From: Meiothermus sp.
GTDB lineage: Bacteria > Deinococcota > Deinococci > Deinococcales > Thermaceae
Reading direction: 5' to 3'
Assembly: GCF_025060375.1 (NCBI RefSeq)
Contig: NZ_JANXCG010000028.1
Coordinates: forward strand, 1 to 37,189
Length of the DNA stretch: 37,189 nt
How positions within the stretch are numbered: the stretch's first letter is position 1; the number at the start of each line of letters is the position of its first letter. A program made the translations under genes and the position numbers. Shown piece by piece: positions 2,909-25,311 of this stretch. The notes beneath the pieces were generated by a model, which was not told the origin of the DNA, did not search any database, and saw only the letters and a program-made list of their open reading frames with translations.

Positions 2909-4639
2909 ATGAACGAGAGTTCCAACCCCATTCGTCCCCGGGGGCCGCGCCGCCGGCAACCCCGGCCAAAACCCAAGGAGCCCATCCTCCTAGGCAAGCC
3001 TGGTGGAGCCGTTGAAATTGTCTTCCTCGGTGGGACCGGAGAGATTGGAAAGAACATCACCGTGTTCCGGTACGAGGATGAAATGTTCGTTGTGGATGGG
3101 GGCCTGGCCTTCCCCGACGAGCACATGCTGGGGGTGGACATCGTCATCCCCCGGATTGACTACCTGATCCAGAACAAGGACCTAATCAAAGGATGGGTAC
3201 TTACCCACGGCCACGAGGACCACATCGGGGCCTTGCCCTACCTGTTCCCCCAGCTCCCCAAGGTACCGGTCTATGGGGCCCGGCTCACCTTAGGCCTGGT
3301 GCGAGGAAAGCTGGAGGAATTCGGCATCAACCCAGGCGAGTACAACTTCAAAGAGGTCTCCACAGACGACCGCATCCGCATCGGTCGCTACTTCCTTCTG
3401 GACCTCTTTCGGATGACCCACTCCATCCCCGACAACTTCGGAATGGTCATCCACACCCCGGTTGGAAAAATCGTCCATACCGGCGACTTCAAGCTCGACC
3501 CACGGCCTATTGATGGCCAGACCTCCCACCTGGAGAAAATCGCCCAGGCTGGGGCTGAAGGGGTGCTCTGCCTAATCGCCGACTCCACCAACGGCGAGCG
3601 GCCTGGCACCACCCCCAGCGAAAGCGAGGTGGCCGAGGAGCTGGACAAGGTCATCGGTGCGGCCAAGGGGCGCATCTTTGTGACCACCTTCGCCTCCCAC
3701 ATCCACCGCATCCAGTCGGTGGTCAGCGCAGGCGAGAAGTACGGGCGGAAAATAGCGGTAGAGGGGCGTTCGATGCTCAAATACGCGCGAATCGCCCTCG
3801 AGCTGGGTTACTTCAAGCAAAAGGACCGTTTCTACACCCTGGACGAGATCAAGGACCTGCCGGATGAGCAGGTGCTGGTCATCGCCACCGGTTCTCAAGG
3901 CCAGCCCGAGGCTGCCCTATCCCGGCTGGCCTCGGGGAACCACGCCAAAATCGCCATCAAGGAGGGCGACACGGTTATCCTGAGCAGCAGCCCCATCCCC
4001 GGCAACGAGGAGGCGGTGAACACCATGATCAACCGCCTGTATGCCCTAGGGGCCTATGTCTTCTACCCGCCCCGCTACAAGGTCCACGCCTCGGGACATG
4101 CCAGCCACGAGGAGCTCAAGGCCGTTCTGAACCTAGCTCGGCCCCGCTTCCTCCTACCCTGGCACGGCGAGGTACGGCACCAGGTCAACTTCAAGTGGTT
4201 GGCGGAAAGCCTGCCCAACCCCCCGGAGAAAGTCCTCATTCCCGAGAATGGGCGGCTCATCCGGCTCACCTCAGACCGCATAGAGTTCGATGGTAAGGTG
4301 CCCCACGGGCAGCTCTACGTGGACGGGCTAGGGGTAGGCGACATCACCGACGAGATACTGGAGGACCGCAATCACATGGCCGCCGAAGGGGTGGTGGTCA
4401 TCACCGCGCTGGTGAGCCGCGACCCGTTGGTGGAGGTGATCTCCAAAGGGTTTGTGAAGGCCGGAGAGCGGCTTCTGGGCGAGGTGCGGAGAATGGCCCT
4501 GGACTCCCTCCACCGGGGAATGCGGGAGAAAAAGCGGCTGGAGGAGATTCGCGACGACATCTACTACCCGGTGAAGAAATTCATCGCCAAGAACACAGGC
4601 CGCAACCCGGTAATCCTGCCCATCGTGATACAGGGGTGA
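2909..4639 (+). CDS. rnj: Ribonuclease J (metallo-beta-lactamase/beta-CASP)
   Basis: The 576-aa product carries the zinc-binding HxHxDH motif in THGHEDHIGA (about residues 100-105), a beta-CASP domain and the later histidine motif SGHASHEEL, followed by the RNase J C-terminal domain. RNase J has endonuclease and 5'-3' exonuclease activity on RNA. The start at ATG 2909 is set by AGGAGG at 2899-2904; an upstream in-frame extension to 2846 runs through the intergenic hairpin and is unlikely. The N-terminal 20 residues are Arg/Pro-rich, a possible RNA-binding or partner-binding tail. The length is close to that of other RNase J proteins. It probably shares a transcript with pnp, giving one operon for both exonuclease directions. 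Confidence 0.95.
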   Translation: MNESSNPIRPRGPRRRQPRPKPKEPILLGKPGGAVEIVFLGGTGEIGKNITVFRYEDEMFVVDGGLAFPDEHMLGVDIVIPRIDYLIQNKDLIKGWVLTHGHEDHIGALPYLFPQLPKVPVYGARLTLGLVRGKLEEFGINPGEYNFKEVSTDDRIRIGRYFLLDLFRMTHSIPDNFGMVIHTPVGKIVHTGDFKLDPRPIDGQTSHLEKIAQAGAEGVLCLIADSTNGERPGTTPSESEVAEELDKVIGAAKGRIFVTTFASHIHRIQSVVSAGEKYGRKIAVEGRSMLKYARIALELGYFKQKDRFYTLDEIKDLPDEQVLVIATGSQGQPEAALSRLASGNHAKIAIKEGDTVILSSSPIPGNEEAVNTMINRLYALGAYVFYPPRYKVHASGHASHEELKAVLNLARPRFLLPWHGEVRHQVNFKWLAESLPNPPEKVLIPENGRLIRLTSDRIEFDGKVPHGQLYVDGLGVGDITDEILEDRNHMAAEGVVVITALVSRDPLVEVISKGFVKAGERLLGEVRRMALDSLHRGMREKKRLEEIRDDIYYPVKKFIAKNTGRNPVILPIVIQG

Positions 4640-9815: not shown

Positions 9816-12800
9816 TCAGAAGCGGAAGGTTATGCCAATTCCAAAGCGCACCCCATCCCCCCGTGCACCGTCCCCTACGCCGGTAGCGATGTCTAGGGTC
9901 AGGTCGGCCCCCAGAGGCCGCAGGGTGTAGCCCAAGGTCAGCTCCGGTCGGGGTTGGGGAAACACCTCACTGCTGAAGCGGAAGCGCAGGTCGCCTTGCT
10001 GGTACTCCGCAAACACCGTCTGATACCCCCGCAGGTCCACGCTGTAAGCAAAAAACAGCTCGGGGAGCAGGTAGCGTCCGATGGTGAAGCGGGTCTCCTC
10101 GAGGGTACCTCCATTGAGGGCAGGGATCTCCACCCGCACCTGGTCCAGCCCCAGGGCCTTGGCCAGCTCGCGCTCGAGCTGGCCCACGATGAAGTTCTGA
10201 ACCGCTGCTTGCAGGCCCGTCTGGGCGATGTCGGCCGGAAGGGCCGAAAGGTCAGAGCGGCCCAGCAGCAACAGGGCATAAATCTCCGCATCGGTGTAGG
10301 CCTGGCCGTCGGCCTTGCGAGCCAGCTCGCCGTTGCTCCAGGCGGTGAAGGAGGGGGTGAGGCCGACCTTGATGCGTCCGTTCTGGCGCAAAAATTCGCC
10401 CTTCAAGGTGAGGTTGATCTGTACGCGCCGGTTTTCCTGACCCCGATCCTGCACCGTGGTATCGGCAACGATCTGCAGCTCCGGCAGGATACCCGCCGAG
10501 GGCGAAAAGCGAGCGTAGCTGCGTTCCTGGCCCCGATCGCGGACGGTGAAGTCGCGGTCCCAGAGCTTGAAATTGCCCCGCAAGGGCACCACCTCCCCGG
10601 AAAGGTAGGGGTCGGCCAGGCTGCCCCCCAGGTAGACCTCGCCGGCCAGCTCGCCTTGGACCAGCGATTCCTGGATCAGGACGCCCCGCTCAGCGCGGAA
10701 CTGGATGTTGGCGAACTCCAGGGGTACCCCTGCGGCCGGCGGGGTTTTGGGCTCAGAGGCCGGGATAGAAACCTCCTGCTGCCCCTCGGGAAGGCCCAAC
10801 CGAGCCCGTAGCACCTCCACCGCCCCCTGGGCAATGTAGACCCCGCGTTGGTAGCGCAGGATTAGGTTGGTGTCCAGAAGACCCTCCAGCAGGAAGTAGC
10901 GCGGATAGCTCACCGGAACCAGCCCCTGCAGGGTCAGCACAAGCTGGGGGAAGAGTGTCCCGTACAGCCGAGCTCGCTGGTTGCGCAAGGAGGCGTCTAT
11001 GGTGTAAGCGGGGTAGCTGAAGCTCAGGTCAAAGGGTTCACCCGGGTTGAGCAGGGGCGGGTTGGCGGTTCCAGAGGCCCGTACGGTGAAGCCGTTCAGG
11101 CTCCCCTCACCAGACAGCTGGGCCTGGGCGGGAAAGGGCGCGGTAAGCAGAATGCGCCCTTCCGCACTGGCGGTGTCCGCCACCCGCAAAACCGCGCGGG
11201 GGGTTTCGGCCTGTACCGGACCCAGCTTGAAGCGGAAGTTCTCCAGGGTCAGGTCAAAGACCTGTCCACTCGAGCGAAGCCTCAGGGTACCGCTGCCCTC
11301 TGGAGCCAGGGGCTTGAGGTTGGGCAGCACCTGCAACACCGGGGTAAAAACGGTGTTCTCCAGGTCCAGCCGCAGGTTGCTGCCCCGACGCCCGTAGTAC
11401 CCCGAGCCGCTCCAGGTGCCCTTGCCCGTAAGGGCCAGGTGGTCTATGTAGAGCCGCTCCCCCTCAAAGCGCAAGGCTGCGCTGCCCACCAGGGCATCGC
11501 CCCCTCCCTGAAAACGCAGCCGCTCCCCCACCAAGACCCCCTGAGAAGCCCAGGGGTTGGCGAGGTCAAGGCTGAAGCGGGCCTGACCCGTCCAAAAAGC
11601 CTGGCCCGCCAGGTCGCCAGCCCAGGTGGAGAACAACCAGTGCAGCGGAAAGGCCACTGCCCTGGCTTCCCCCTGGAGCCGATGGTTCTGCACTCGAAGC
11701 CGCAACCAGGTGCGTTGGGAACCCGCAATACCGTCCTGACCCAGGCTCCCTTCCCCCAGGGGACGCTCTAGGCTCAGCTCAGCCTGCATGGAGCCACCCT
11801 CCCAACTCCCGCTTAGGCGGCTGGCCAGCGCCAGGTCGTCCCCCTTGACCCGAAGCGCCGGGCTGCTCGCCCCGAACACCAACCGCCCCCCCGCGTACTC
11901 TATGAGGCCGGTGACGCGACCCTGAATAAAGGGCAAGCGGGTGCTTATCCAGGGCACCTCCTCCAGGGCCAGGTCGCTGAACCCAGCCCGGGCTTCGAGA
12001 CCAGCCTGAGCGAGGCGTGCCTCTAGGCGCAAGCGGCCTAGGTCGCCGCTCAGGTTGCCGCTGGCCTCCAAAGCCCCCCTTCCCTCCAGCTCGAGCTGGA
12101 GGCGGCTGGCCAGGGGTTCCAGTGGGAGTTCGGCGCGCAGGCGGCCCTGCCAGGCTCCAGCGGCGTATCCCATCTGGCCCTCGAGCCAAGGGCCTTGGGC
12201 CAGCAAGCGGGCCTCCAACAGACGGCCTTCAAGCTGGAGCCGCTGCTCCTTGGCGTCGCTGTAAACCAGGCGCCAGGCCCCGTCTAGACCTACCTGTCCC
12301 TCCAAAGCCCCTACCCTCCAGGGAAGCCAAGGGGTCTCGGGATGGGTCGCGCGGATTTGAAGCTCCCTTCCAGCCCCTTCCAGGGCCACCTCAAGGCCGT
12401 AGAGGGAAATTTTCAGGCCCCCGCTAAGCTGCCCCTTCGAAAAGAGCAGCATACCCGTGCCCAGCTCAGGCGCGGAAAGCCGCACCTCGTAGGTGCGCAG
12501 GTCCAGCTCAGCCCGGAAGCTACCCTCAGCAAAGGGGTAGACCGCCTCTAAAAGCCCACCCCGACCCCGCACCTCCACAGGCCCAAGGGGGAGCTCCCCC
12601 GAGGCACTGGCCTCAGCAAGGTTGACCTGCAGGGAGGAAGGGGCCCCAGGGCGGGCCAGCTGGAGGGAGGGGTAGGCCAAGCGCAAGGCCATCCCCAACA
12701 CCTGGCCGTCCACCACCGGGAGGCCCGTTCCGGAGAGCTCGAGGTAGCCCTCGCGAAAGGCCACCCGCCCCGACCAGGCGCCGTTGTAGGCCACTGCGCC

Positions 12801-15800
12801 CGACAGGTCCCCCTCCAACTGGGCCTCCAGCCGGCCCTCCTGCCAAAGCGCCACCACCTTTCCCTTCCGCCCCCCCCCTTCCCAACCCAGGTCAGCCTGC
12901 AGGTTGCCCCAAGGACCCTCCACCCCCCCGCTCAGGTAGAGCCCCTCCACCGGGCGATACCCCTCCAACCGGAGCCAGAGGCTCCCAGGGCTCAGGCGGG
13001 CTTCCAGACCCGGGGCCTGGAGCCTGAGACCATCCTCCTGGCCCTCCAGGGCCACCTCCTGCCCGGCCACCCGGTACCGACCCACCAGCCAACGGCCAGG
13101 GTAGACGCCCTGGGCCTCCAGGCTCCCCAGCCCCCGCGGTAGGGCGCCCCCATAGGACCAGCTGAGCCGAAGGGGGTTGAGGTCAATCCGGGCCAGCAGG
13201 GGGTCCAGCCCATCGCGGCCGCGAAGGTCCACCTCCTGCCCCCGGGCCGTGAGCTCCACCCTCCCCCATTCGGGCATCCAGAGCGAACCATCGCCCCGCA
13301 GCGCCAGGGGCGAAGCATCCAGTTCAAACCGGCCCTCAAAGCGCAAATCGGCCGGGCCCGACCAAGGCCCCCGGGCCTGCGCCTCAAGAACCCAGCGCCC
13401 TGGCTGGGACCAGCCCTCGCGGAGCCGGAGCTGGAGCCGACCCTGCCAACCCTCGCGCCCCTCCAACCAAACCCGGCCCTCCTCCAGGTCGGCCCGGCCC
13501 GTCCAGCGCCCCCCTACCACCGGGAAGTCCAGGCTTACCAAGCCGCTGGGGGCCCCCGCGGCCCAGCGAACCAACCCGGTGGCATAGGGCCCTTCGAGCC
13601 GCAGCCGCAGCTGGCCGTCGTAAAAAACCTCAAACCGCTGCCGCTCGTAGCGCCCGGCCAGCTGGCCCTCCAGCCGGGCCGGCCAGAAGCTCCCTTCGGC
13701 CAAAAGGTTGGGGCCGGTGAGCCGGAGGGGCAGCTCGAGCCCCTCCCAGGGCCCCTCCCCCTGGGCCACCAGGTGGAGGGGCAGCCCCAGAAAGGGCTCC
13801 AGGCTGCCGTCGAAGTTCAGGCGAAGGTGGTGGTTCTCAAGGCGCGCGGAAAGCCCAGCTCCCCAGGCCTCCGCCCAAAGCCCCTCCCGGTAGCCAAACC
13901 TGAGCGCAATCTCGGCACCCCGGCCCACAAGCCTTCCCTGTCCCCTCAGCTCAGGGCGGCTCAGGCTTCCACCAAGCCCCGCCTGAAGCTCGAGGGCGGC
14001 CACCCCTAGGCCCTGGCGGTAAGCCAGGTCGCCCTGAAGTGCGCCATCCAGGCCAGCAGAAGCCCGAACAACCGCGCCATAGGCCCGCCCCTGGGCCAAA
14101 ACCCGGGGGCCCTGGCCCAGCAGGGCCAGGTCTACCTGCTCTCCCCGAAGTTGTAGGCGCCCATCCAAGGAACCCTCCAGCAGGTCCATCCGGCCCGCCA
14201 GGGTGAATCGGCGGTCCAAGGCCTCCACCTGGCCCTGCCCTGAAACCCTCGCCCGCCTCAGCAGAACCCCCTGCCCTTCAGCCTCTAACCGCAAAGGGGC
14301 ATCCCACACCAACCCCCAGCTTGCCCCTTCCCCAAAAACCCTCAGGGGGCCGCTTTGCTCGAGGTAGCGCAATCCCACCAGCCGCCCGCTGGCCTGGTAC
14401 CGACTACCCAGGGTGTACAAGGAGAGCTGGGCTTGCGCGTAGGGCCCCTCGACCTCCAGCTTAGCCTGACCCCGCTGCTGGGCCAGGGTGTAGCTCCCGT
14501 CTGCGCGCAATCGGGTCCACGGGGTGTGGAGCTCCAGCCCAACCTGGGGGCGCTGAGGGCTTCCCCCAAGCTCGGCCTCTGCCTCCAGGTGGGGCCCCCT
14601 GTAGGCCAACCGACCCTCCAGCCGCTCCCCCAGGGTAAGCTCCCCCTCGAGATCGCCCGTACCCACCAGGCGAAGCGGTCGGCCGGGCTCGAGCTCCAGC
14701 AGCACCCCCGCGTGGTACTGGGGCAAGAAAGCCGAAAGGGAACGGTCCTTGTAGTCCACCTGAACTTCCTGGCCATAGGCCCATAGGCGCCCTTCCAGTT
14801 CACCGCGCCCCTCCAGGTCCAGCCAGCCTCGCAACCGACCCTGCACATCGGCAGCGAACGTCCGGGCCAAAGGCCCCGTCTCCAGATCAAGGTAGGCCCT
14901 AAGCCCCTCCACCTCCACCTGCCCCTCAGGCAGGCTCAGGGTAGCCCGCAGCCGGCTTAGGTCTGCCCCGTAAGCCTCCAGCCGGGCCTTCAGGGGCAGG
15001 CCAGCGTAGGTGGTGCGCAGCTCGCTCCACAGCTCCAGGGCCTTCCCCGCCAGCTCCCCCTCCACCACCCCGCCGCGCCCCTGCCAGCGATAGGGCCAGC
15101 TCACCCGCCCCCTATACGACAGGCCGCGGCCTGAAAGCGCCAGGGGCCCCTCCAGCCGCCAGGTCTGCTCCAGCACATCCGCCTCAAACCGCCAAGGCAG
15201 GGGCTCCAGGTAGGGTAGGCCGTAGGTACCCTGCCCCGAAGCGGACAGGTTCTCCCAAGGACCATAGACCGCGAGCGTACCCCGCAGGTAGGGGAGCCGA
15301 AGGCTACCCCGCAGGTCCAACCCCTCCAGGCTGGCCCAGCCCTGGAGCCGCGCGTAGGGGCTCTCCAGCTGGGCACGCACCGGCCCCAGCAGGCGGGTGC
15401 CGCTGAGCCGGGCTTGGCCGTAGGGGGTATCCAGGGTCAGCTGCCCGCCCCGCTCCGACCAACCCCCCCGCAGGCGGCCCGGAAAGCCCCAGGGCTCCAG
15501 GCTGTAGTCAGCAGCAACCAGGCGGAGCCGCAACCCCTCAAGCGGCTCCGACGCCGGCTGGTAGTCCCCCACCACCCGCAGACGGCCGTTTTGGAGCTGG
15601 GCGGCATAGGTCAGCTGGGCCCCCTGGCCGCGGAACTCCATCTCGCCCTCCAGCTCTGGAACCCTCAAGCGCCCCTGGTAGGCCAGCCGGGGAAGGTCAA
15701 GCTGGCCCCGCAGCTCACCCCAGTAGCCGCCGTAGGCCAGGCGTCCCTGCAGACCAAGGCTCCTCCAAAGCCCCCGGCCTGCAAGCCGGCCATAGGGGGT

Positions 15801-18059
15801 GGTGAGCTCCAACTGCCCTCCCTCGAGGTTCCCCCGGGCCCAAAGGCGGGCAGGCTGTCCGCCCATGCGCAGGGGAAGCGCGCCCTCAAAGGGAAAACCT
15901 GCCCGAAACAGGACCCGTCCCTCCGGCCAGCGCAGCTCGCTCCGGCCCACCCAAAGGGGAACCTCCTCCACCTCCACGCCGCCCGCCGAAGGCAGGGTAA
16001 GCCGTCCGGTGAGGTTGGGGACCGGCCAGATCGGGCCCGAAAGCCGGGCGTAGCCCTCCGTGCTCAGCCAAAGCTCCTCGCCCCGGCCCTCAAGCCTCCC
16101 CTCGAGCCAGGGGGAGTCGAAGCGCACCTCCCCTGTGTAGCCCCCCGCCCGTAGGCCCAGGCCGGCCTCCAGCCGCAACTGCGGGGTAAGCCGCAAAGGT
16201 CCCTCAATGCGCAGACCCTCCCCGTCGGCGCGGATGCGCAGGGTTTCAAGCCGGGCCTGCAAGCCCTCCGCGTTCGCGGTCCCCTCCAGCCTAAGGGGCC
16301 GGAAGGGGGTCTGCACCACCCCCCGGTAGCGGGTGGCCAGGTCGTAAAGCTCCCCCACCAGCTGCACCCGTTCACCCCTGAGGCCCCAGGTCCCGGAAAG
16401 CCGACCGCCGCCGTAACGCACATCGGCGGAGAGCCGAAGGGGCTCCAGGAGCGCGATGGGCAGCTCCCGCACCTCCAGGCTAAGAACCCCCCCGGCGTAG
16501 CTCCCCTCTCCGTAGCGGCTGGAAATCCTCCAGGCTGAACCCTCCTGCCGTAGAGCGATGGGAAAGCGGGTGTAGGGGGAGTCGTAGCCCAGCTCGGCGC
16601 TGAAGCGGCCTGCCTTGAAGCGGCCTGAACCGCTCAGGCGGCCTACCAACATCTCGAGGCCGCCCAGCCGCAAGCTCAAGTCGTCCCAGAACCCCCGCAG
16701 CTCGAGCTCCCCCAGCCGCCCTCCCACCCGAGGCCCCTCTCCCTCCAGCCGTCCCGAGAGGCTGAACGGCCGGGCCAGGGGCAGGCCAACCCCCTCTGAG
16801 AGCACCTCGAGGGACCAGCGTCCACCCTGGGCCAAAAAGCGCAGCTCAGCCTCGCCCAGCAGGGGGCGCGGCCAGACCAAGACCCCCTGCCCCTCCAGCC
16901 GGGGCCCTTTCCCCCAAAGGCGTAGGTTGCTGTGGTAGACGTCTCGCAGGGTCACGGTGTAGGCATCGTCTCGCAGGGCCACCCGGGCCTGGAAGGTGCG
17001 GTCAAAAATGGCCCCGTCCACCACGGCGTCCAGGCGGAAGCTCTGGTCAAAGGCCAGGGTCCCCTCGTAGGTCAGAGGCTCACCCAGAAGGCGGCCCTCC
17101 CCGCTGTAGCGGCCGCTGAGCTCCAGCCTCTGCCAGCCCCGCCCTTCCAGCACCAAAGGCCCACCCCCCTCCACGGGCAGCCGGAGGCCAAAGTGCTGGG
17201 CTAGGGCAGGAAGGGTGGGCCGCCCCTCTACCCGGAAGCGGTACTCCTGGCGGGGCAGGTCCACCGTGGCCGAGCCCCTTAGGGGGCCGTCAAGACCGCG
17301 CCCTACCAGATTAGCCGTCACCACCTGCCCATCAAAATCGGCCTCACCGTAAATCTGGCTCAGGGCGAAGCCCACCAGGCGAACAGAGGCATTCTTGATC
17401 CGGTTTCTCCCCAGAACGCCATTTTTCACCTGAGGCCCCACCGTCCAGCTCCCCTCCACCTCTCCCGACTCCAGGCCGCTGAACCAGTACCGCGCCGCTC
17501 TCAGGTCCCCTCGAAACTCAACCTGCCAGGCCTCCAGCTCCCGCCCAGTGCGGTAAACCACGGCGCTTAGACGGCCCTCGGGCAGGTTCAGGACCACCTG
17601 GTACGGCCCCGAACCCCGCACAACCGCCCGCAGGGGGGGCAAAGGAAACGCCTTTCCCTCCTCCAATTGCACGCTCACCCGATTGAGCGCCAGCTCGTCA
17701 ATCCGCAGGCTGAAAAGGGACGGAGGAGCAGACCCGGCCCCTTGGGGAAGGAGGGCCTCCCAGGACAGGTGCAGGTCCCCTTCCTCAGCCCAGATGCGCA
17801 AAGGCAACTCCTTCCGCCTGAGGCCGAGCAGGTTGTACCCCAGCCGCAACCGGCCGGCCTCGAGCCTGAGGCCCCTACCCTCCAGCCGGACCTCCCTCAG
17901 CTCAAAGCCCACCAGCAGGTACCCCCCCGCAGCCCGCCAGGTGGCGCGGAAGCCCGCCGCTCTAAGGCCCTCTTGGAGGACGTAGGTGATGAGGGGTGGA
18001 AATGCTGGGAGCCCCACCAACAGGAGGAGGAAAAGAGGCGCCCAGCGCAAAAATCGCAC
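9816..18059 (-). CDS. tamB: Giant TamB-like translocation/assembly module protein (DUF490)
   Basis: The product of about 2747 aa begins with a basic residue and one hydrophobic anchor (FLRWAPLFLLLLVGLPAF). It then consists almost entirely of amphipathic beta-repeats rich in Gly, Leu, Arg and aromatics (recurrent LxLxGxGP and YxGxLxGR patterns), typical of AsmA/TamB groove proteins. The last 400 or so residues form the DUF490/TamB domain and end FGIGITFRF, an outer-membrane-type C-terminus. TamB-like proteins bridge inner and outer membranes for lipid transport and outer-membrane protein assembly. The length is more than twice E. coli TamB. I set the start at GTG 18059 because a TAGACT box ends 7 nt upstream; the open frame reaches TTG 18119, but that start precedes the promoter and lacks a ribosome-binding site. 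There are no internal stops over 8.2 kb. Confidence 0.88.
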   Translation of the reverse strand: MRFLRWAPLFLLLLVGLPAFPPLITYVLQEGLRAAGFRATWRAAGGYLLVGFELREVRLEGRGLRLEAGRLRLGYNLLGLRRKELPLRIWAEEGDLHLSWEALLPQGAGSAPPSLFSLRIDELALNRVSVQLEEGKAFPLPPLRAVVRGSGPYQVVLNLPEGRLSAVVYRTGRELEAWQVEFRGDLRAARYWFSGLESGEVEGSWTVGPQVKNGVLGRNRIKNASVRLVGFALSQIYGEADFDGQVVTANLVGRGLDGPLRGSATVDLPRQEYRFRVEGRPTLPALAQHFGLRLPVEGGGPLVLEGRGWQRLELSGRYSGEGRLLGEPLTYEGTLAFDQSFRLDAVVDGAIFDRTFQARVALRDDAYTVTLRDVYHSNLRLWGKGPRLEGQGVLVWPRPLLGEAELRFLAQGGRWSLEVLSEGVGLPLARPFSLSGRLEGEGPRVGGRLGELELRGFWDDLSLRLGGLEMLVGRLSGSGRFKAGRFSAELGYDSPYTRFPIALRQEGSAWRISSRYGEGSYAGGVLSLEVRELPIALLEPLRLSADVRYGGGRLSGTWGLRGERVQLVGELYDLATRYRGVVQTPFRPLRLEGTANAEGLQARLETLRIRADGEGLRIEGPLRLTPQLRLEAGLGLRAGGYTGEVRFDSPWLEGRLEGRGEELWLSTEGYARLSGPIWPVPNLTGRLTLPSAGGVEVEEVPLWVGRSELRWPEGRVLFRAGFPFEGALPLRMGGQPARLWARGNLEGGQLELTTPYGRLAGRGLWRSLGLQGRLAYGGYWGELRGQLDLPRLAYQGRLRVPELEGEMEFRGQGAQLTYAAQLQNGRLRVVGDYQPASEPLEGLRLRLVAADYSLEPWGFPGRLRGGWSERGGQLTLDTPYGQARLSGTRLLGPVRAQLESPYARLQGWASLEGLDLRGSLRLPYLRGTLAVYGPWENLSASGQGTYGLPYLEPLPWRFEADVLEQTWRLEGPLALSGRGLSYRGRVSWPYRWQGRGGVVEGELAGKALELWSELRTTYAGLPLKARLEAYGADLSRLRATLSLPEGQVEVEGLRAYLDLETGPLARTFAADVQGRLRGWLDLEGRGELEGRLWAYGQEVQVDYKDRSLSAFLPQYHAGVLLELEPGRPLRLVGTGDLEGELTLGERLEGRLAYRGPHLEAEAELGGSPQRPQVGLELHTPWTRLRADGSYTLAQQRGQAKLEVEGPYAQAQLSLYTLGSRYQASGRLVGLRYLEQSGPLRVFGEGASWGLVWDAPLRLEAEGQGVLLRRARVSGQGQVEALDRRFTLAGRMDLLEGSLDGRLQLRGEQVDLALLGQGPRVLAQGRAYGAVVRASAGLDGALQGDLAYRQGLGVAALELQAGLGGSLSRPELRGQGRLVGRGAEIALRFGYREGLWAEAWGAGLSARLENHHLRLNFDGSLEPFLGLPLHLVAQGEGPWEGLELPLRLTGPNLLAEGSFWPARLEGQLAGRYERQRFEVFYDGQLRLRLEGPYATGLVRWAAGAPSGLVSLDFPVVGGRWTGRADLEEGRVWLEGREGWQGRLQLRLREGWSQPGRWVLEAQARGPWSGPADLRFEGRFELDASPLALRGDGSLWMPEWGRVELTARGQEVDLRGRDGLDPLLARIDLNPLRLSWSYGGALPRGLGSLEAQGVYPGRWLVGRYRVAGQEVALEGQEDGLRLQAPGLEARLSPGSLWLRLEGYRPVEGLYLSGGVEGPWGNLQADLGWEGGGRKGKVVALWQEGRLEAQLEGDLSGAVAYNGAWSGRVAFREGYLELSGTGLPVVDGQVLGMALRLAYPSLQLARPGAPSSLQVNLAEASASGELPLGPVEVRGRGGLLEAVYPFAEGSFRAELDLRTYEVRLSAPELGTGMLLFSKGQLSGGLKISLYGLEVALEGAGRELQIRATHPETPWLPWRVGALEGQVGLDGAWRLVYSDAKEQRLQLEGRLLEARLLAQGPWLEGQMGYAAGAWQGRLRAELPLEPLASRLQLELEGRGALEASGNLSGDLGRLRLEARLAQAGLEARAGFSDLALEEVPWISTRLPFIQGRVTGLIEYAGGRLVFGASSPALRVKGDDLALASRLSGSWEGGSMQAELSLERPLGEGSLGQDGIAGSQRTWLRLRVQNHRLQGEARAVAFPLHWLFSTWAGDLAGQAFWTGQARFSLDLANPWASQGVLVGERLRFQGGGDALVGSAALRFEGERLYIDHLALTGKGTWSGSGYYGRRGSNLRLDLENTVFTPVLQVLPNLKPLAPEGSGTLRLRSSGQVFDLTLENFRFKLGPVQAETPRAVLRVADTASAEGRILLTAPFPAQAQLSGEGSLNGFTVRASGTANPPLLNPGEPFDLSFSYPAYTIDASLRNQRARLYGTLFPQLVLTLQGLVPVSYPRYFLLEGLLDTNLILRYQRGVYIAQGAVEVLRARLGLPEGQQEVSIPASEPKTPPAAGVPLEFANIQFRAERGVLIQESLVQGELAGEVYLGGSLADPYLSGEVVPLRGNFKLWDRDFTVRDRGQERSYARFSPSAGILPELQIVADTTVQDRGQENRRVQINLTLKGEFLRQNGRIKVGLTPSFTAWSNGELARKADGQAYTDAEIYALLLLGRSDLSALPADIAQTGLQAAVQNFIVGQLERELAKALGLDQVRVEIPALNGGTLEETRFTIGRYLLPELFFAYSVDLRGYQTVFAEYQQGDLRFRFSSEVFPQPRPELTLGYTLRPLGADLTLDIATGVGDGARGDGVRFGIGITFRF

Positions 18060-18066
18060 GATTTTT

Positions 18067-18072
18067 AGTCTA
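18067..18072 (-). promoter_or_regulatory. tamB -10 box, leaderless configuration
   Basis: TAGACT on the minus strand is separated by 7 nt from GTG 18059. The trpS gene in this window has the identical TAGACT-7-GTG arrangement. No clear -35 box is visible. Confidence 0.5.
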
Positions 18073-18161
18073 GACCAGAAGTCTGAGCAAAATCTAGGAA
18101 AACCCCCATGAAAAGCCAATCAAGGGGCCTAGAAGGATGCGACAAAAACCCCCGCTCCGCG

Positions 18162-20128: not shown

Positions 20129-22456
20129 ATGGCTGAGCGCTACACCCCTCCCCCGACCCCGCAGTACGCCCTCGAGTCCGGCCCCATCCTGCTCAAGGAC
20201 GGCCGCACCGCTACCCTGCGCCCGGCCCAACCCGAAGACCGGCCCCTCTTCGTGGAATTTCTCCAGCGCCTCTCCCCCCAAGCCCGCACCTTCCGCTTCT
20301 TTTCGGAAATAGACCCCGAGACCGCTGCCGACCTCCTCCTGCGCAAGCCTCCCGACGAGGACAAGGTCACCCTGGTGGTCCTCACCGGCGACCCTGAGCG
20401 CATCATCGCCACCGGTGAGTACGTGCAAGAAGGCCCTGGCTCTACCTCGGCAGAGGTGGCCTTTCTGGTGGACGACTGGTACCAGGGCCGCGGCCTAGGC
20501 TCCCTGCTCCTGGAGCGGCTGGCCCTCATCGGGGTGCGGCGGGGCATCCGGCGCTTCCACGCCTACACCCTGGCCGAAAACAAGCAGATGCTGGATGTCT
20601 TCAAGGCCAGCGGCTTCAAAATTGAGGCCCACAACGAGGCAGGAGAGGTAGAGGTCAGCTTTGAAATTGAGCCCAACCCCGAGATGCTGGCCCGCTTTGA
20701 GCTGCGCGAGCGGGTGGCTACGGTGGCCTCGCTCCTGCCGGTGTTGCGCCCGCGGGGCGTGGCGGTGGTAGGGGCCTCCCGCGACCCGGAGAGCGTGGGC
20801 TACAGGGTGCTGGAAAACCTGGTGCTGAACCGCTTCCAAGGGCCGGTCTACCCGGTCAACCCAGCCGTCGTGCCCGCTGCAGGCGAGGTGCCGGTGGTGG
20901 GTTCCATGCTGGCCTACACCTCCATCAAGGCGGTGCCCGGCCCGGTAGACCTGGCGGTGCTCACCACCCCTCGGGAGAAGGTCCTAGAGGCCGCTGAGGC
21001 CTGCGGTCAGCGGGGCGTGCGGGCTTTGATGGTGGTCACCACCGATATGGAGCCGCCCCAGACCAAGGCCCTGGTGCAGACCTGCCGCCGGTACGGCATG
21101 CGCCTGCTGGGCCCAGGCTCGCTGGCCCTCATGACCACCAGCCCAGAGGTCCAGCTGTGCGCTGGGCTGGCCCCAAGGCTACCGCTCAGGGGCCAGATTG
21201 CCATGTCAAGCCAGAGTGGGGCCGTGGGCCTGGCCGTGCTGGAGTACGCCCGCGAGATGGGTCTGGGGTTCTCCAACTTCGTCTCGCTGGGCGCCAAGGT
21301 GGACATCTCCTCCAACGACCTGATCCAGTACTGGGAGGAAGATCCCGAGACCGGGCTGATCCTGCTCTACGTGGAGTCGTTTGGCAACCCCAGGCGGTTC
21401 GCGCGGCTTGCCCGACGGGTGGGGCGCAAAAAGCCCATCCTGGCAGTGCGGCCGGGTCGGGACGCGGTGGTGGAGGCCCTCTTCAAGCAAACCGGGGTGG
21501 TGCGGGCCGAGAACCTTGAGGAGATGTTCGACATCGCCGCCTTGCTGGCCCACCAACCCCTGCCCGAAGGGCCACGGGTAGCCCTGCTGAGCAACGCTTC
21601 GGGACCCGCCTACCTAGCCAAAGATGCCCTCGAAACCGAGGGAATGCAGGCGGAGGTGCTGGACCTGGGCTCCCGGGCCTCGGGCCAGGCTTACCGGGAA
21701 AACGTCAGAAGGCTCCTCAAGGAGGGCTTCCACGCCCTCATCACCCTCTTTGTTCCGCTGGGCTACGCCACCGTGGAGGAAGTCCAGCAGGCCCTGGGTG
21801 AGGCCTTCCAGGAGGCCCGCCGCCAGGGGGTGGACATTCCCTTGCTCACCTGCTTCATGAGCGCGGGAAGGCCCCGGGTGCAGCTCGAGGGCGAGCAAAT
21901 CCCCACCTATCGCTTTCCAGAGTCGGCCGGGCGTGCCTTGGGCGCGGCCTATGCCTACGCCCAGTGGAGAAAAACGCCCCCTGGAGAGATTCCCGACCAC
22001 AACGTCCGCGAGGACGAAGCCCGAGCCCTGGTAGCCGGGGCTAGGGGCCTGCTGAAGCCCGAAACGGTCCAGGCCCTGTTGGACTGCTTCGGCCTTAGGC
22101 TATCCCCTCCCCCTAAAGGGGCCATCCCCCTGGCCCTACGGGTTCAGCATGACCCCCTGTTCGGCCCGGTGCTCTCCCTGGCGCTTACCGGGCTGCCCCT
22201 GGGCGAGCAGCCCCTCGGCCTGCGCATCACCCCCCTCACCGACCGCGAGGCTGCGGAGATGCTGGCCCCTCTGGGAGGAATTGCTCATCTGGAAAGCCTC
22301 CAAGACCTGCTGCTACGGGTCTCCCGGCTCCTGGAGGAGCTGCCCGAGGTGGAGGGGCTCGAGCTGCGGCTGGCCTCGGGGCCTGAAGCTACCGCCATCA
22401 CTGAGGCCCAGGTACGGCTCAAAGGGCCTTCTCGGGAAGACCCAAAGCCCTCGTGA
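20129..22456 (+). CDS. GNAT acetyltransferase fused to NDP-forming acyl-CoA synthetase-like domain (Pat-like)
   Basis: The 775-aa product has an N-terminal GNAT domain (about residues 25-175) with the acetyl-CoA loop QGRGLG (119-124). A CoA-binding Rossmann domain follows (from about 208, VAVVGASRDPESVGYRVLENL), then ligase-CoA domains with AMSSQSGAVGLAVLEYA, and a reduced ATP-grasp-like tail. In active ADP-forming acyl-CoA synthetases a phosphohistidine lies in an SHTGS motif; here the matching place reads FKQTG (about 452-456), so the synthetase half is probably catalytically dead. This is a hallmark of Pat protein lysine acetyltransferases, which regulate acyl-CoA ligases. The GNAT domain is N-terminal, unlike Salmonella Pat. 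GGTGAGG precedes the ATG, and TATCCT (20110-20115) is a possible -10 box. Confidence 0.85.
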   Translation: MAERYTPPPTPQYALESGPILLKDGRTATLRPAQPEDRPLFVEFLQRLSPQARTFRFFSEIDPETAADLLLRKPPDEDKVTLVVLTGDPERIIATGEYVQEGPGSTSAEVAFLVDDWYQGRGLGSLLLERLALIGVRRGIRRFHAYTLAENKQMLDVFKASGFKIEAHNEAGEVEVSFEIEPNPEMLARFELRERVATVASLLPVLRPRGVAVVGASRDPESVGYRVLENLVLNRFQGPVYPVNPAVVPAAGEVPVVGSMLAYTSIKAVPGPVDLAVLTTPREKVLEAAEACGQRGVRALMVVTTDMEPPQTKALVQTCRRYGMRLLGPGSLALMTTSPEVQLCAGLAPRLPLRGQIAMSSQSGAVGLAVLEYAREMGLGFSNFVSLGAKVDISSNDLIQYWEEDPETGLILLYVESFGNPRRFARLARRVGRKKPILAVRPGRDAVVEALFKQTGVVRAENLEEMFDIAALLAHQPLPEGPRVALLSNASGPAYLAKDALETEGMQAEVLDLGSRASGQAYRENVRRLLKEGFHALITLFVPLGYATVEEVQQALGEAFQEARRQGVDIPLLTCFMSAGRPRVQLEGEQIPTYRFPESAGRALGAAYAYAQWRKTPPGEIPDHNVREDEARALVAGARGLLKPETVQALLDCFGLRLSPPPKGAIPLALRVQHDPLFGPVLSLALTGLPLGEQPLGLRITPLTDREAAEMLAPLGGIAHLESLQDLLLRVSRLLEELPEVEGLELRLASGPEATAITEAQVRLKGPSREDPKPS

Positions 22457-22530: not shown

Positions 22531-23499
22531 ATGCCCGGCAGATACGGAGTTCCCACCGACCCCGACTACCAGGAGCGCCTGGCCGAGTTTGAAGCCCGCA
22601 TCCGACGGGGTGAGAAGATAGAGCCTGGCGACTGGATGCCCGAGGAGTACCGCCGCCAGCTCATCCGGATGATCTCCCAGCACGCCCACTCCGAAGTGGT
22701 GGGTATGCTCCCCGAAGGAGCCTGGATTACCCGTGCTCCCAGCCTCAAGCGCAAGCTCATCCTCATCGCCAAAGTGCAGGATGAGGCCGGGCATGGTCAG
22801 TACCTCTACCACGCCGCTGAAACGCTGGGCGTACGCCGCGAGGAGATGCTGGAGGCGCTGCTTTCGGGCAGGGCCAAGTACTCCTCCATATTCAACTACC
22901 CCACCCTCACCTGGGCCGACATCGGCACCATCGGCTGGCTGGTGGACGGAGCGGCCATCAAAAATCAGACCATGCTGGCCCAGTGCTCCTACGGACCCTA
23001 CAGCCGCGCGATGGTGCGGATCTGCGCTGAGGAGACCTTCCACCACAAGCAGGGCAAGGAGATGGTGCTGCTCTACGCCCACGGCACCCCCAAGCAGCGG
23101 GCCATGGCCCAAGACGCCATCAACCGCTGGTGGTGGCCGGCCCTGATGATGCTGGGACCCCACGATAAAGACAGCCCCAACACCGAGGTGCTGGTCCGCT
23201 GGGGCATCAAAACCAAAACCAACGACCAAGTACGCCAGGAGTTCATCAACGAGCACGCCCCGGAAATCCTGGCCGCGGGCCTGAGCATTCCCGACCCCGA
23301 GCTGCGCTACGACGAAAAGAGCGGGAACTGGCTGCACGGCCCCATCAACTGGGAAGAGTTCTGGCAGGTGGTGGGCGGCAACGGCCCCATGAACAAAGAG
23401 CGGCTGGAGGCCCGCCGCCGCGCCCACGCCGAGGGGGCCTGGGTGCGGGAGGCGCTCCAAGCCTATGCGGCAAGACAGCAAAGAGCCGTAGCGGTGTAG
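22531..23499 (+). CDS. paaA: Phenylacetyl-CoA 1,2-epoxidase subunit A (catalytic)
   Basis: The 322-aa product is a ferritin-like di-iron monooxygenase subunit close to the E. coli PaaA length. Iron ligands can be placed in [13 protein letters not shown] (ExxH) and in [14 protein letters not shown] (second E and ExxH). PaaA with PaaC forms the core that converts phenylacetyl-CoA to its ring-1,2-epoxide in aerobic phenylacetate breakdown. AGGAGG at 22521-22526 precedes ATG 22531. It is the first gene of the operon, directly under a TTGAAC/TAAATT promoter and a PaaR-type operator. paaB starts 10 bp downstream. Confidence 0.97.
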
Positions 23500-23509
23500 G
23501 AGGGCCCGG

Positions 23510-24091
23510 ATGGACACCCAATGGCCCCGTTGGGAGGTCTTCAAGCAAGATGCCCCAGGAAAGCCCCACCAGGCGGTGGGCTCAGTGCACGCTGCCGACC
23601 CCGAGCACGCCCTTCTGACCGCCCGGAATGTCTTTGCCCGGCGGCCCCAGGCGGTAAGCCTGTGGGTGGTGCGGGCGGAGGAGGTCTTTTCCTGGACCAA
23701 GGAGGAAATAGCCCAGGACCCAGCGCTGCAGGGTGGGGCCACGCCAGCTCGAGGCCTCCGGCCAACCAGCTACCTGGTCTTTCGCAAAACCAGCCACAAG
23801 CGCTCCATGACCTTTGTGGACCACGTGGGGGAGGTACAGGCCTGCTCACCTCAGGAGGCTCTTAGGGAGGCCCTGGCCCGCTTTAGGGATGCGGAAGGGC
23901 TGGCCTGGTGGGTGGTAGCCGCTGAAAAGGTGCACAGAAGCGACCCCAGCCAAGAAACTGTGGAGAGCTGGTTCGCCCCGGCCAAGGAGAAAACCTACAA
24001 ACAGCAACAATACTACACCACGGTGAGCGCGAGCCGGCCCAAGCGGAGGGGGGAGGATGAAGCCTTTGGTGAAGGATGCGCTCATTGCTAA
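23510..24091 (+). CDS. paaB: Phenylacetyl-CoA epoxidase subunit B, tandem-duplicated form
   Basis: The 193-aa product is about twice the length of the roughly 95-aa E. coli PaaB and contains two PaaB-like units. Unit 1 spans residues 8-62 (WEVFKQ...[14 protein letters not shown]...[10 protein letters not shown]) and unit 2 residues 88-142 (YLVFRK...[14 protein letters not shown]...[10 protein letters not shown]). PaaB is non-catalytic and bridges PaaAC heterodimers. AGGAGGG at 23499-23505 precedes ATG 23510. The C-terminal tail is basic and ends GEGCAHC; its last 35 nt overlap the start of paaC in another frame, so the tail is fixed by a double-coding constraint. Function as PaaB is well supported by operon position; the duplication is read directly from the sequence. 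Confidence 0.93.
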
Positions 24092-24815
24092 GCTGACCAC
24101 CCTGGCCGACGACGAGGTAATCCTGGCACACCGCAACAGCGAGTGGGTGGGGCACGGGCCCATCCTGGAAGAGGACATCGCCCTGGCCAACATCACCCAG
24201 GATGAGCTGGGCCACGCCATACTCTGGTACGGCCTGCGAAAAGAGCTGGACGGCAGCGACCCTGACCGGCTGGCCTTCTTCCGCGATGCTTACGAGTACC
24301 GCTGCTGCGAGCTGGTGGAGCTACCCAAGGGCGACTGGGCCTTCACCATGCTCAGGCAGTACCTCTTTGACCTGTACGAGTCGCTTTGGCTCGAGGCTGC
24401 CCAACAAAGCACCTACCCGCCCCTGGCCGGGGCCGCCCAGAAAATCATCCGTGAGGAGCGTTTTCACCTTCAGCACACCCGGGCCTGGGTGGAGCGGCTG
24501 GGCCTGGGGACCGAGGAGTCCAACCGACGGCTACAGCAGGCCCTAGACTTCCAGTGGGGCTACGCCCAGCAGCTTTTTGTGCCCATCCCTGGCGAAGAGC
24601 TCCTGGTGGCCGAGGGCATCGTGCCCGACCTAGTGCCCCTCAAGGCACGGTGGCTCGAGCAGGCCAGCCGCCACCTGCAAAACGCCGGCCTCAAACTGCC
24701 CATCAATCCGGGATACCAGCCTACCTCGCGGGAGCAGCACACCGAACACCTGTGGAGCCTCCTGGCCGAGATGCAGTCCACTGCCCGTTGGGACCCAGAG
24801 GCCAAGGTCTGGTGA
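24057..24815 (+). CDS. paaC: Phenylacetyl-CoA epoxidase subunit C (structural)
   Basis: The 252-aa product is a ferritin-like four-helix protein matching PaaC in length, with the segments [15 protein letters not shown] and [16 protein letters not shown]. PaaC pairs with PaaA as its non-catalytic partner and helps bind substrate. ATG 24057 follows GGAGGGGGGAGG and lies 35 nt inside paaB, which indicates tight translational coupling. Both ExxH-like motifs are still visible, so from sequence alone I cannot say whether metal binding is lost as in the E. coli subunit. Confidence 0.95.
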
Positions 24816-24816
24816 T

Positions 24817-25311
24817 ATGACCGCCCTACCCACCGCCGAGCAAGTTTGGGAAGCCCTAGCCCGGATTCCTGACCCTGAGATTCCGGTGGTAAGCGTGGTG
24901 GAGATGGGCATCGTGCGGGATGTCCAGGTGGAAGGCCCCAAAGCCACCATCACCATGACCCCCACCTTCTCGGGCTGCCCCGCCTTGCACCTGATCCGGG
25001 AGCAACTGGAGAAAACCGCCCGGTCGCTGGGCTTCGCCGATGTGGAGGTAAAAACCGTGCTCTCGCCGCCCTGGAGCACCGACTGGATTACCCCTGAGGC
25101 CAAGGAACGCCTGCGCCAGTACGGGATTGCGCCGCCCAAACCTGCCCACGAGGGAAGCGGGCTTATACAGATTGAGACCAACCCCACCCCCTGCCCCCGC
25201 TGCGGCTCCCTCGACACCCGGCTCACGAACGCCTTCGGCCCCACACTCTGCAAGGCCCTCTACGTCTGCCACAGTTGTAAAGAGCCCTTTGAAAGCTTTA
25301 AGTCGGTCTAA
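24817..25311 (+). CDS. paaD: PaaD, iron-sulfur/assembly factor of the epoxidase
   Basis: The 164-aa product has an N-terminal MIP18/DUF59 domain (about residues 5-95) with [15 protein letters not shown] and the conserved Cys in [13 protein letters not shown]. It also has a C-terminal zinc ribbon (about 126-160) with CPRC and CHSC pairs. PaaD is needed for a working epoxidase, probably in Fe-S or di-iron maturation. ATG 24817 comes 1 nt after the paaC stop. The operon then ends: no paaE reductase follows in the window, and the next gene is an unrelated lipoprotein with its own ribosome-binding site. Confidence 0.95.

Follow-up and report, generated by a model that had tools for sequence, protein, structure and literature searches.

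A PaaB subunit with two units in one chain and the same division of features in four bacterial lineages

Ordinary PaaB, a subunit of phenylacetyl-CoA epoxidase, is a one-unit protein of about 95 amino acids. The window analysed here, positions 1 to 37,189 of contig NZ_JANXCG010000028.1 of Meiothermus sp. (assembly GCF_025060375.1), carries between paaA and paaC a paaB open reading frame (ORF) whose product has 193 amino acids. This locus raises the question of what the additional half of the chain is, how often such a form has been acquired and what it may do to the epoxidase complex. The product consists of two PaaB units in one chain and, given its two units and its length, it is a variant form of the PaaB family (hereafter, double PaaB). 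It must be noted that the subunit itself is known; what is new is that its two-unit form arose repeatedly, with the same division of features between the units.

The ORF starts with ATG, has an AGGAGG-like site just 5' of the start and begins 10 bases after the paaA stop codon. Both units of its product scored above the PF06243 cut-off of 27 bits, with 83.2 bits over profile positions 1-65 and 48.8 bits over positions 5-86, and these were the only two PF06243 matches in the whole genome. The complete chain was also a member of NCBIfam TIGR02157 (94.8 bits, cut-off 85.45). The internal duplication had been proposed in a preliminary description of the locus, and the pairwise alignment of the two halves proved significant: the BLOSUM62 local score was 60, while shuffled sequences gave 26 ± 5 (standard deviation) and none of 5000 reached 60. 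In addition, profile-profile comparison of alignments built from nine relatives for each unit matched unit 2 to unit 1 with an E value of 1e-7, and the unit 2 alignment to single PaaBs with an E value of 1e-10. All the paired motifs named in that description were located, namely W8-E-V-F11 and Y88-L-V-F91, A22-V-G-S-V26 and H105-V-G-E-V109, D30-P-E-H-A-L35 and S113-P-Q-E-A-L118, and W52-V-V-R-A-E and W134-V-V-A-A-E. Its two units lay where it had placed them, although the extent given for the second (residues 88-142) was too short, as unit 2 is also followed by a tail (about residues 154-171). The offset between the repeats shifts from 80 to 83 and then to 82 residues; the first hairpin of unit 2 is three residues longer than that of unit 1, and the end of its helix is one residue shorter, at the position occupied in unit 1 by Arg44-Arg45. 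The linker, variable among relatives in both length and sequence, occupies the place that the tail has in a single PaaB. An assembly accident as the source of the double was rejected, the two-unit frame being open in dozens of genomes.

With respect to structure, each unit is predicted to have the PaaB fold. The AlphaFold2 model of the full chain contained two beta-beta-alpha-beta bodies with a predicted local distance difference test score (pLDDT) of about 95 each, a disordered tail and a predicted template modelling score (pTM) of 0.70, values which suggest a defined packing of both units. The input was an 11-row alignment in which the rows of single PaaBs had been trimmed to the body and thus could not bias the placement of the tail. 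In this model unit 1 has strands at residues 7-13, 21-27 and 50-55 and a helix at 31-42, and the confident matches in the PDB were the PaaB chains 3egr and 4iit (probability 1.00). Unit 2 modelled alone, from two sequences only, gave a body with pLDDT of about 75-90 and again a disordered tail; its top three matches were 3egr_B, 4iit_B and 3egr_A (probability 1.00, template modelling score on the target 0.77-0.81), and the remaining matches displayed all had a probability of 0.18 or lower. To the extent that models can show it, an unrelated domain in the second half is thereby excluded. The coordinates of the features are given in Table 1.

Table 1. Position in the window of the double PaaB, its parts and the adjoining genes of the operon.
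Feature	Coordinates	Strand	Basis
paaB, two-unit (double) PaaB, 193 amino acids	23510..24091	+	ORF; two PF06243 matches; TIGR02157
Unit 1, residues 4-66, predicted PaaB body (beta-beta-alpha-beta) without C-terminal tail	23519..23707	+	PF06243, 83.2 bits; model
Arg44-Arg45	23639..23644	+	Column counts and out-of-sample check
Linker, residues 67-83	23708..23758	+	Between the two modelled bodies
Unit 2, residues 84-148, body without Arg-Arg, with conserved H-K/R-R-S-M-T-F-V-D hairpin	23759..23953	+	PF06243, 48.8 bits; model
PaaB C-terminal tail, residues 154-171 (starts at W154), once per chain	23969..24022	+	PF06243 match reaches profile position 86
paaA, catalytic di-iron subunit of phenylacetyl-CoA epoxidase	22531..23499	+	TIGR02156, 519.8 bits
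paaC, structural subunit, 35-base overlap with paaB	24057..24815	+	TIGR02158, 290.8 bits
paaD, maturation factor	24817..25311	+	TIGR02159, 210.6 bits

The double is not peculiar to this genome but is the usual form of PaaB in Deinococcota, where it was found in 56 of the 60 genomes with a PaaB (111 genomes searched). The four Deinococcota singles (L032-L035) all belong to one other family of the same order and lie in a different paa operon; L032, the only one of them placed on the tree described below, has PaaA and PaaC that group with Chloroflexota, so that its operon looks like a whole-operon replacement or transfer. Other phyla were surveyed by even samples of genomes, and all counts of doubles are lower bounds because a second unit that has diverged may escape detection. 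Doubles numbered at least seven among 75 Chloroflexota genomes with a match over the cut-off, one of 76 in Actinomycetota and four of 69 in the GTDB phylum of Melioribacteraceae, taken here as Bacteroidota; none was detected in the samples of Pseudomonadota (0 of 62) and Planctomycetota (0 of 5). Among relatives of the Actinomycetota double, four of 50 PaaB-bearing genomes carried the double form, and among those of the Bacteroidota double it was recognized by two matches in 29 of 83, or in 30 if G1766, read by eye, is included. Named holders are Deinococcus psychrotolerans, from Antarctica, and Deinococcus sp. QL22, both with the gene between paaA and paaC. Their doubles, on Deinococcus plasmids (L210, L211), are annotated only as 'phenylacetic acid degradation protein', and that of D. 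psychrotolerans, the one of the two that was scored, reached 78.2 bits against TIGR02157, under its cut-off; surveys of PaaB based on names therefore miss such doubles. About 30 Chloroflexota genomes also contained weak PaaB-like matches of about 22-37 bits, covering about profile positions 3-58 (for instance G368:C4:14026-14205, G200 and G216), which perhaps represent an undescribed relative of PaaB.

The number of origins was approached through a phylogeny of PaaA and PaaC sequences, concatenated for 74 loci, on which four changes are required to explain the double form, all four of them forced by well-supported branches; the same number was obtained when two long branches were removed. The best tree with all doubles in one clade was rejected by the approximately unbiased test (p-AU 1.6e-79). 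Four lineages of doubles were thus distinguished: Deinococcota with some Chloroflexota (A), a group of Actinomycetota (B), Chloroflexota with large genomes (C) and a group of Bacteroidota (D). A tree of the PaaB units themselves, with 63 columns, is too short for support between groups, which was weak, and agrees with separate origins: both units of B fell within the ordinary PaaBs, those of C close to singles from Chloroflexota and those of D close to the singles of their own group. These phylogenies indicate that doubles arose at least four separate times. Lineage A fits a single gain for Deinococcota and those Chloroflexota, by descent or by transfer. A single ancient duplication followed by loss from most lineages would account for the same division of features in all doubles; however, it requires many separate losses and runs against both results of the PaaA and PaaC tree. 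Furthermore, the two halves of the double from Actinomycetota resemble each other closely (score 121, z 22), which fits a younger duplication, and we consider an ancient one very improbable.

One feature that divides the units is the Arg-Arg pair after the helix. Its two columns are the only ones conserved in every single PaaB and every unit 1 and in no unit 2 across the four lineages (29 of 29 single representatives, 20 of 20 first units, 0 of 20 second units), and the pair was present in 128 of 128 distinct single PaaBs. Conversely, the tail with its Tyr/Phe-Arg/Lys follows unit 2 only, again in all four lineages. The protein of the window thus carries both the Arg-Arg pair and a Tyr-Arg/Lys tail, on different units. 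For lineages B and D this rule was formulated as a prediction before further doubles were read, and all 19 of these conformed to it (17 from B and D and two from Deinococcus); two other Actinomycetota proteins examined beside them were singles. In lineage B, the least diverged, unit 2 still resembles an ordinary PaaB closely, except that Thr-Lys or Thr-His replaces Arg-Arg. In L177, a locus of lineage C (PaaB ORF 3267-3938, minus strand), unit 1 is followed by a worn tail-like stretch, HPLNEAYQQQARY, to be compared with PPLDRSYRRLDGY. It is likely a remnant of the tail that belonged to the first copy, as would be expected if unit 1 once had one. Within Deinococcota, mean identity was 71% for unit 1, 68% for the tail and 41% for the body of unit 2, which is therefore the freest part of the chain. 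It must be considered, in this regard, that unit 2 of the doubles from Deinococcota and some Chloroflexota conserves a hairpin motif absent from ordinary PaaB, H/Q-K/R-R-S-M-T-F/Y-V/G-D (23795-23821 in the window), which is possibly a new contact surface.

What this division may mean depends on how ordinary PaaB works. According to reviews of the Klebsiella structure (PMC4498308, PMC9493321), it forms a homodimer at the centre of the PaaABC heterohexamer and joins two PaaAC pairs, each PaaB occupying the cleft of one pair; the bridging role given to PaaB in the preliminary description is therefore right for the ordinary protein. The PaaB of Escherichia coli is reported to be needed for phenylacetyl-CoA epoxidation, and the product obtained in vitro was more than 100-fold lower when PaaB was left out (PMC9493321). 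The simplest interpretation of a covalent double is therefore a dimer whose chains have been joined, and the chances appear to us about even that it is a fused dimer with a single complete PaaAC docking site. Units 1 and 2 would pack against each other like both chains of the homodimer, and the covalent chain would assemble at a fixed stoichiometry and be free to turn asymmetric. The Arg-Arg pair and the tail may belong to the surface on which PaaAC docks, and a given PaaAC may be served by the Arg-Arg of one unit together with the tail from its partner unit. If they serve it in trans in this way, the homodimer would have two equal docking sites, of which the double would keep one whole, made by the Arg-Arg of unit 1 and the tail after unit 2, and would have lost the other; the predicted complex is a heterotrimer with a single copy each of PaaA, PaaC and the double PaaB, and with a calculated mass of about 88 kDa. 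The preliminary description suggested that a covalent double might fix the bridge or alter the size of the complex, and either may hold; the repeated complementary loss points to asymmetry, perhaps to the loss of one docking site. A more tentative proposal, to which we give somewhat less than an even chance, is that in each of four lineages, independently, the symmetric bridge became a clamp formed by one asymmetric chain, with a single docking site and a heterotrimeric epoxidase.

Several points weigh against the proposal of a single docking site. That no tail is left behind unit 1 could be explained simply by this site lying in the middle of the chain, and the conserved hairpin motif implies that unit 2 does something and need not be mere filler. 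In addition, we infer both the contact of the Arg-Arg pair and the tail with PaaAC and their action in trans. The solved PaaB chains (3egr and 4iit) have coordinates for 62-63 of their 95-96 residues, with the tail seemingly unbuilt. The motif of the Deinococcota unit 2, lineage-specific and conserved, together with a tail as conserved as unit 1, would also suit a fused dimer in which the bridge between two PaaAC pairs persists but in unlike ways, one pair being held mainly through the Arg-Arg of unit 1 and the other mainly through unit 2 and its tail, with a calculated mass near 154 kDa. We regard this asymmetric bridge as possible though rather doubtful, given that the same residue pair was lost from the same unit in four lineages. 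Should both features of one chain serve a single PaaAC pair, each site would now be only half made, which is a strange outcome for four lineages to have arrived at separately.

A second alternative is a further dimerisation, between two double chains (A2C2BB2, about 175 kDa), in which the arm formed by unit 2 reaches another partner, for example the electron donor. The genome of the window, 99.8% complete and carrying paaABCD, gave no match to the PaaE reductase (TIGR02160), and neither did several relatives; the electron donor of its epoxidase should therefore be something else. Nevertheless, the distribution of doubles does not follow that of genomes without PaaE: many singles of Chloroflexota, and the singles of Deinococcota, also lack a PaaE match over the cut-off, and the Actinomycetota double adjoins a full PaaE. 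Re-dimerised doubles are thus improbable, and the idea that the double compensates for a missing PaaE was likewise rejected. Finally, the suggestion in the preliminary description that the fusion serves heat stability, preventing dissociation of the bridge, would suit a genome among whose near relatives there seem to be Thermus-like and Meiothermus-like genera, yet it deserves hardly any credence, with the same protein in the Antarctic D. psychrotolerans, single PaaBs in the Tepidimonas and HRbin39 records (of hot habitat, to judge from their names) and nothing tying the other three lineages of doubles to heat.

Concerning the neighbourhood, every gene of the paaA-paaB-paaC-paaD operon exceeded its NCBIfam cut-off, and the same order was present in all 12 doubles from outside Deinococcota that were first examined. 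Just upstream of paaA, at 20129-22456, lies the gene of a 775-amino-acid protein with an acetyltransferase-like (Pat-like) N-terminal part joined to an acyl-CoA ligase alpha-like part. The longest open frame of the window by far, of 2767 amino acids, is on the minus strand at 9816-18119.

In comparison with known systems, the double shares with PaaB (PF06243, TIGR02157; 3EGR, 4IIT) its predicted fold, its core residues and its position between paaA and paaC. The Arg-Arg of these proteins recurs in unit 1 and their tail after unit 2, so that the two features, together on the one unit of ordinary PaaB, are here split. Haloarchaeal PaaB (NF041867) belongs to the same family, but its model is a single unit of 100 positions, unlike the two-unit protein of the window, which scored 56.9 bits against it, under the cut-off of 150. 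In the open literature searched we found no earlier report of a double PaaB; a previous mention in the primary structure paper (J Struct Biol 2013) is possible. Among the dimeric alpha/beta-barrel proteins, chlorite dismutase and DyP peroxidases are fused, diverged pseudo-dimers of small beta-alpha units that form homodimers elsewhere; these are other families with other functions, and their likeness to the double PaaB is by analogy only.

Repeated fusion with the same split amounts to a natural experiment on which parts of the subunit are important, and in what combination. The pattern singles out the Arg-Arg pair and the tail, and provides a prediction for the stoichiometry of the complex. 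If the reading of the double as a one-chain clamp is true, the two-lobed bridged assembly would not be needed for catalysis.
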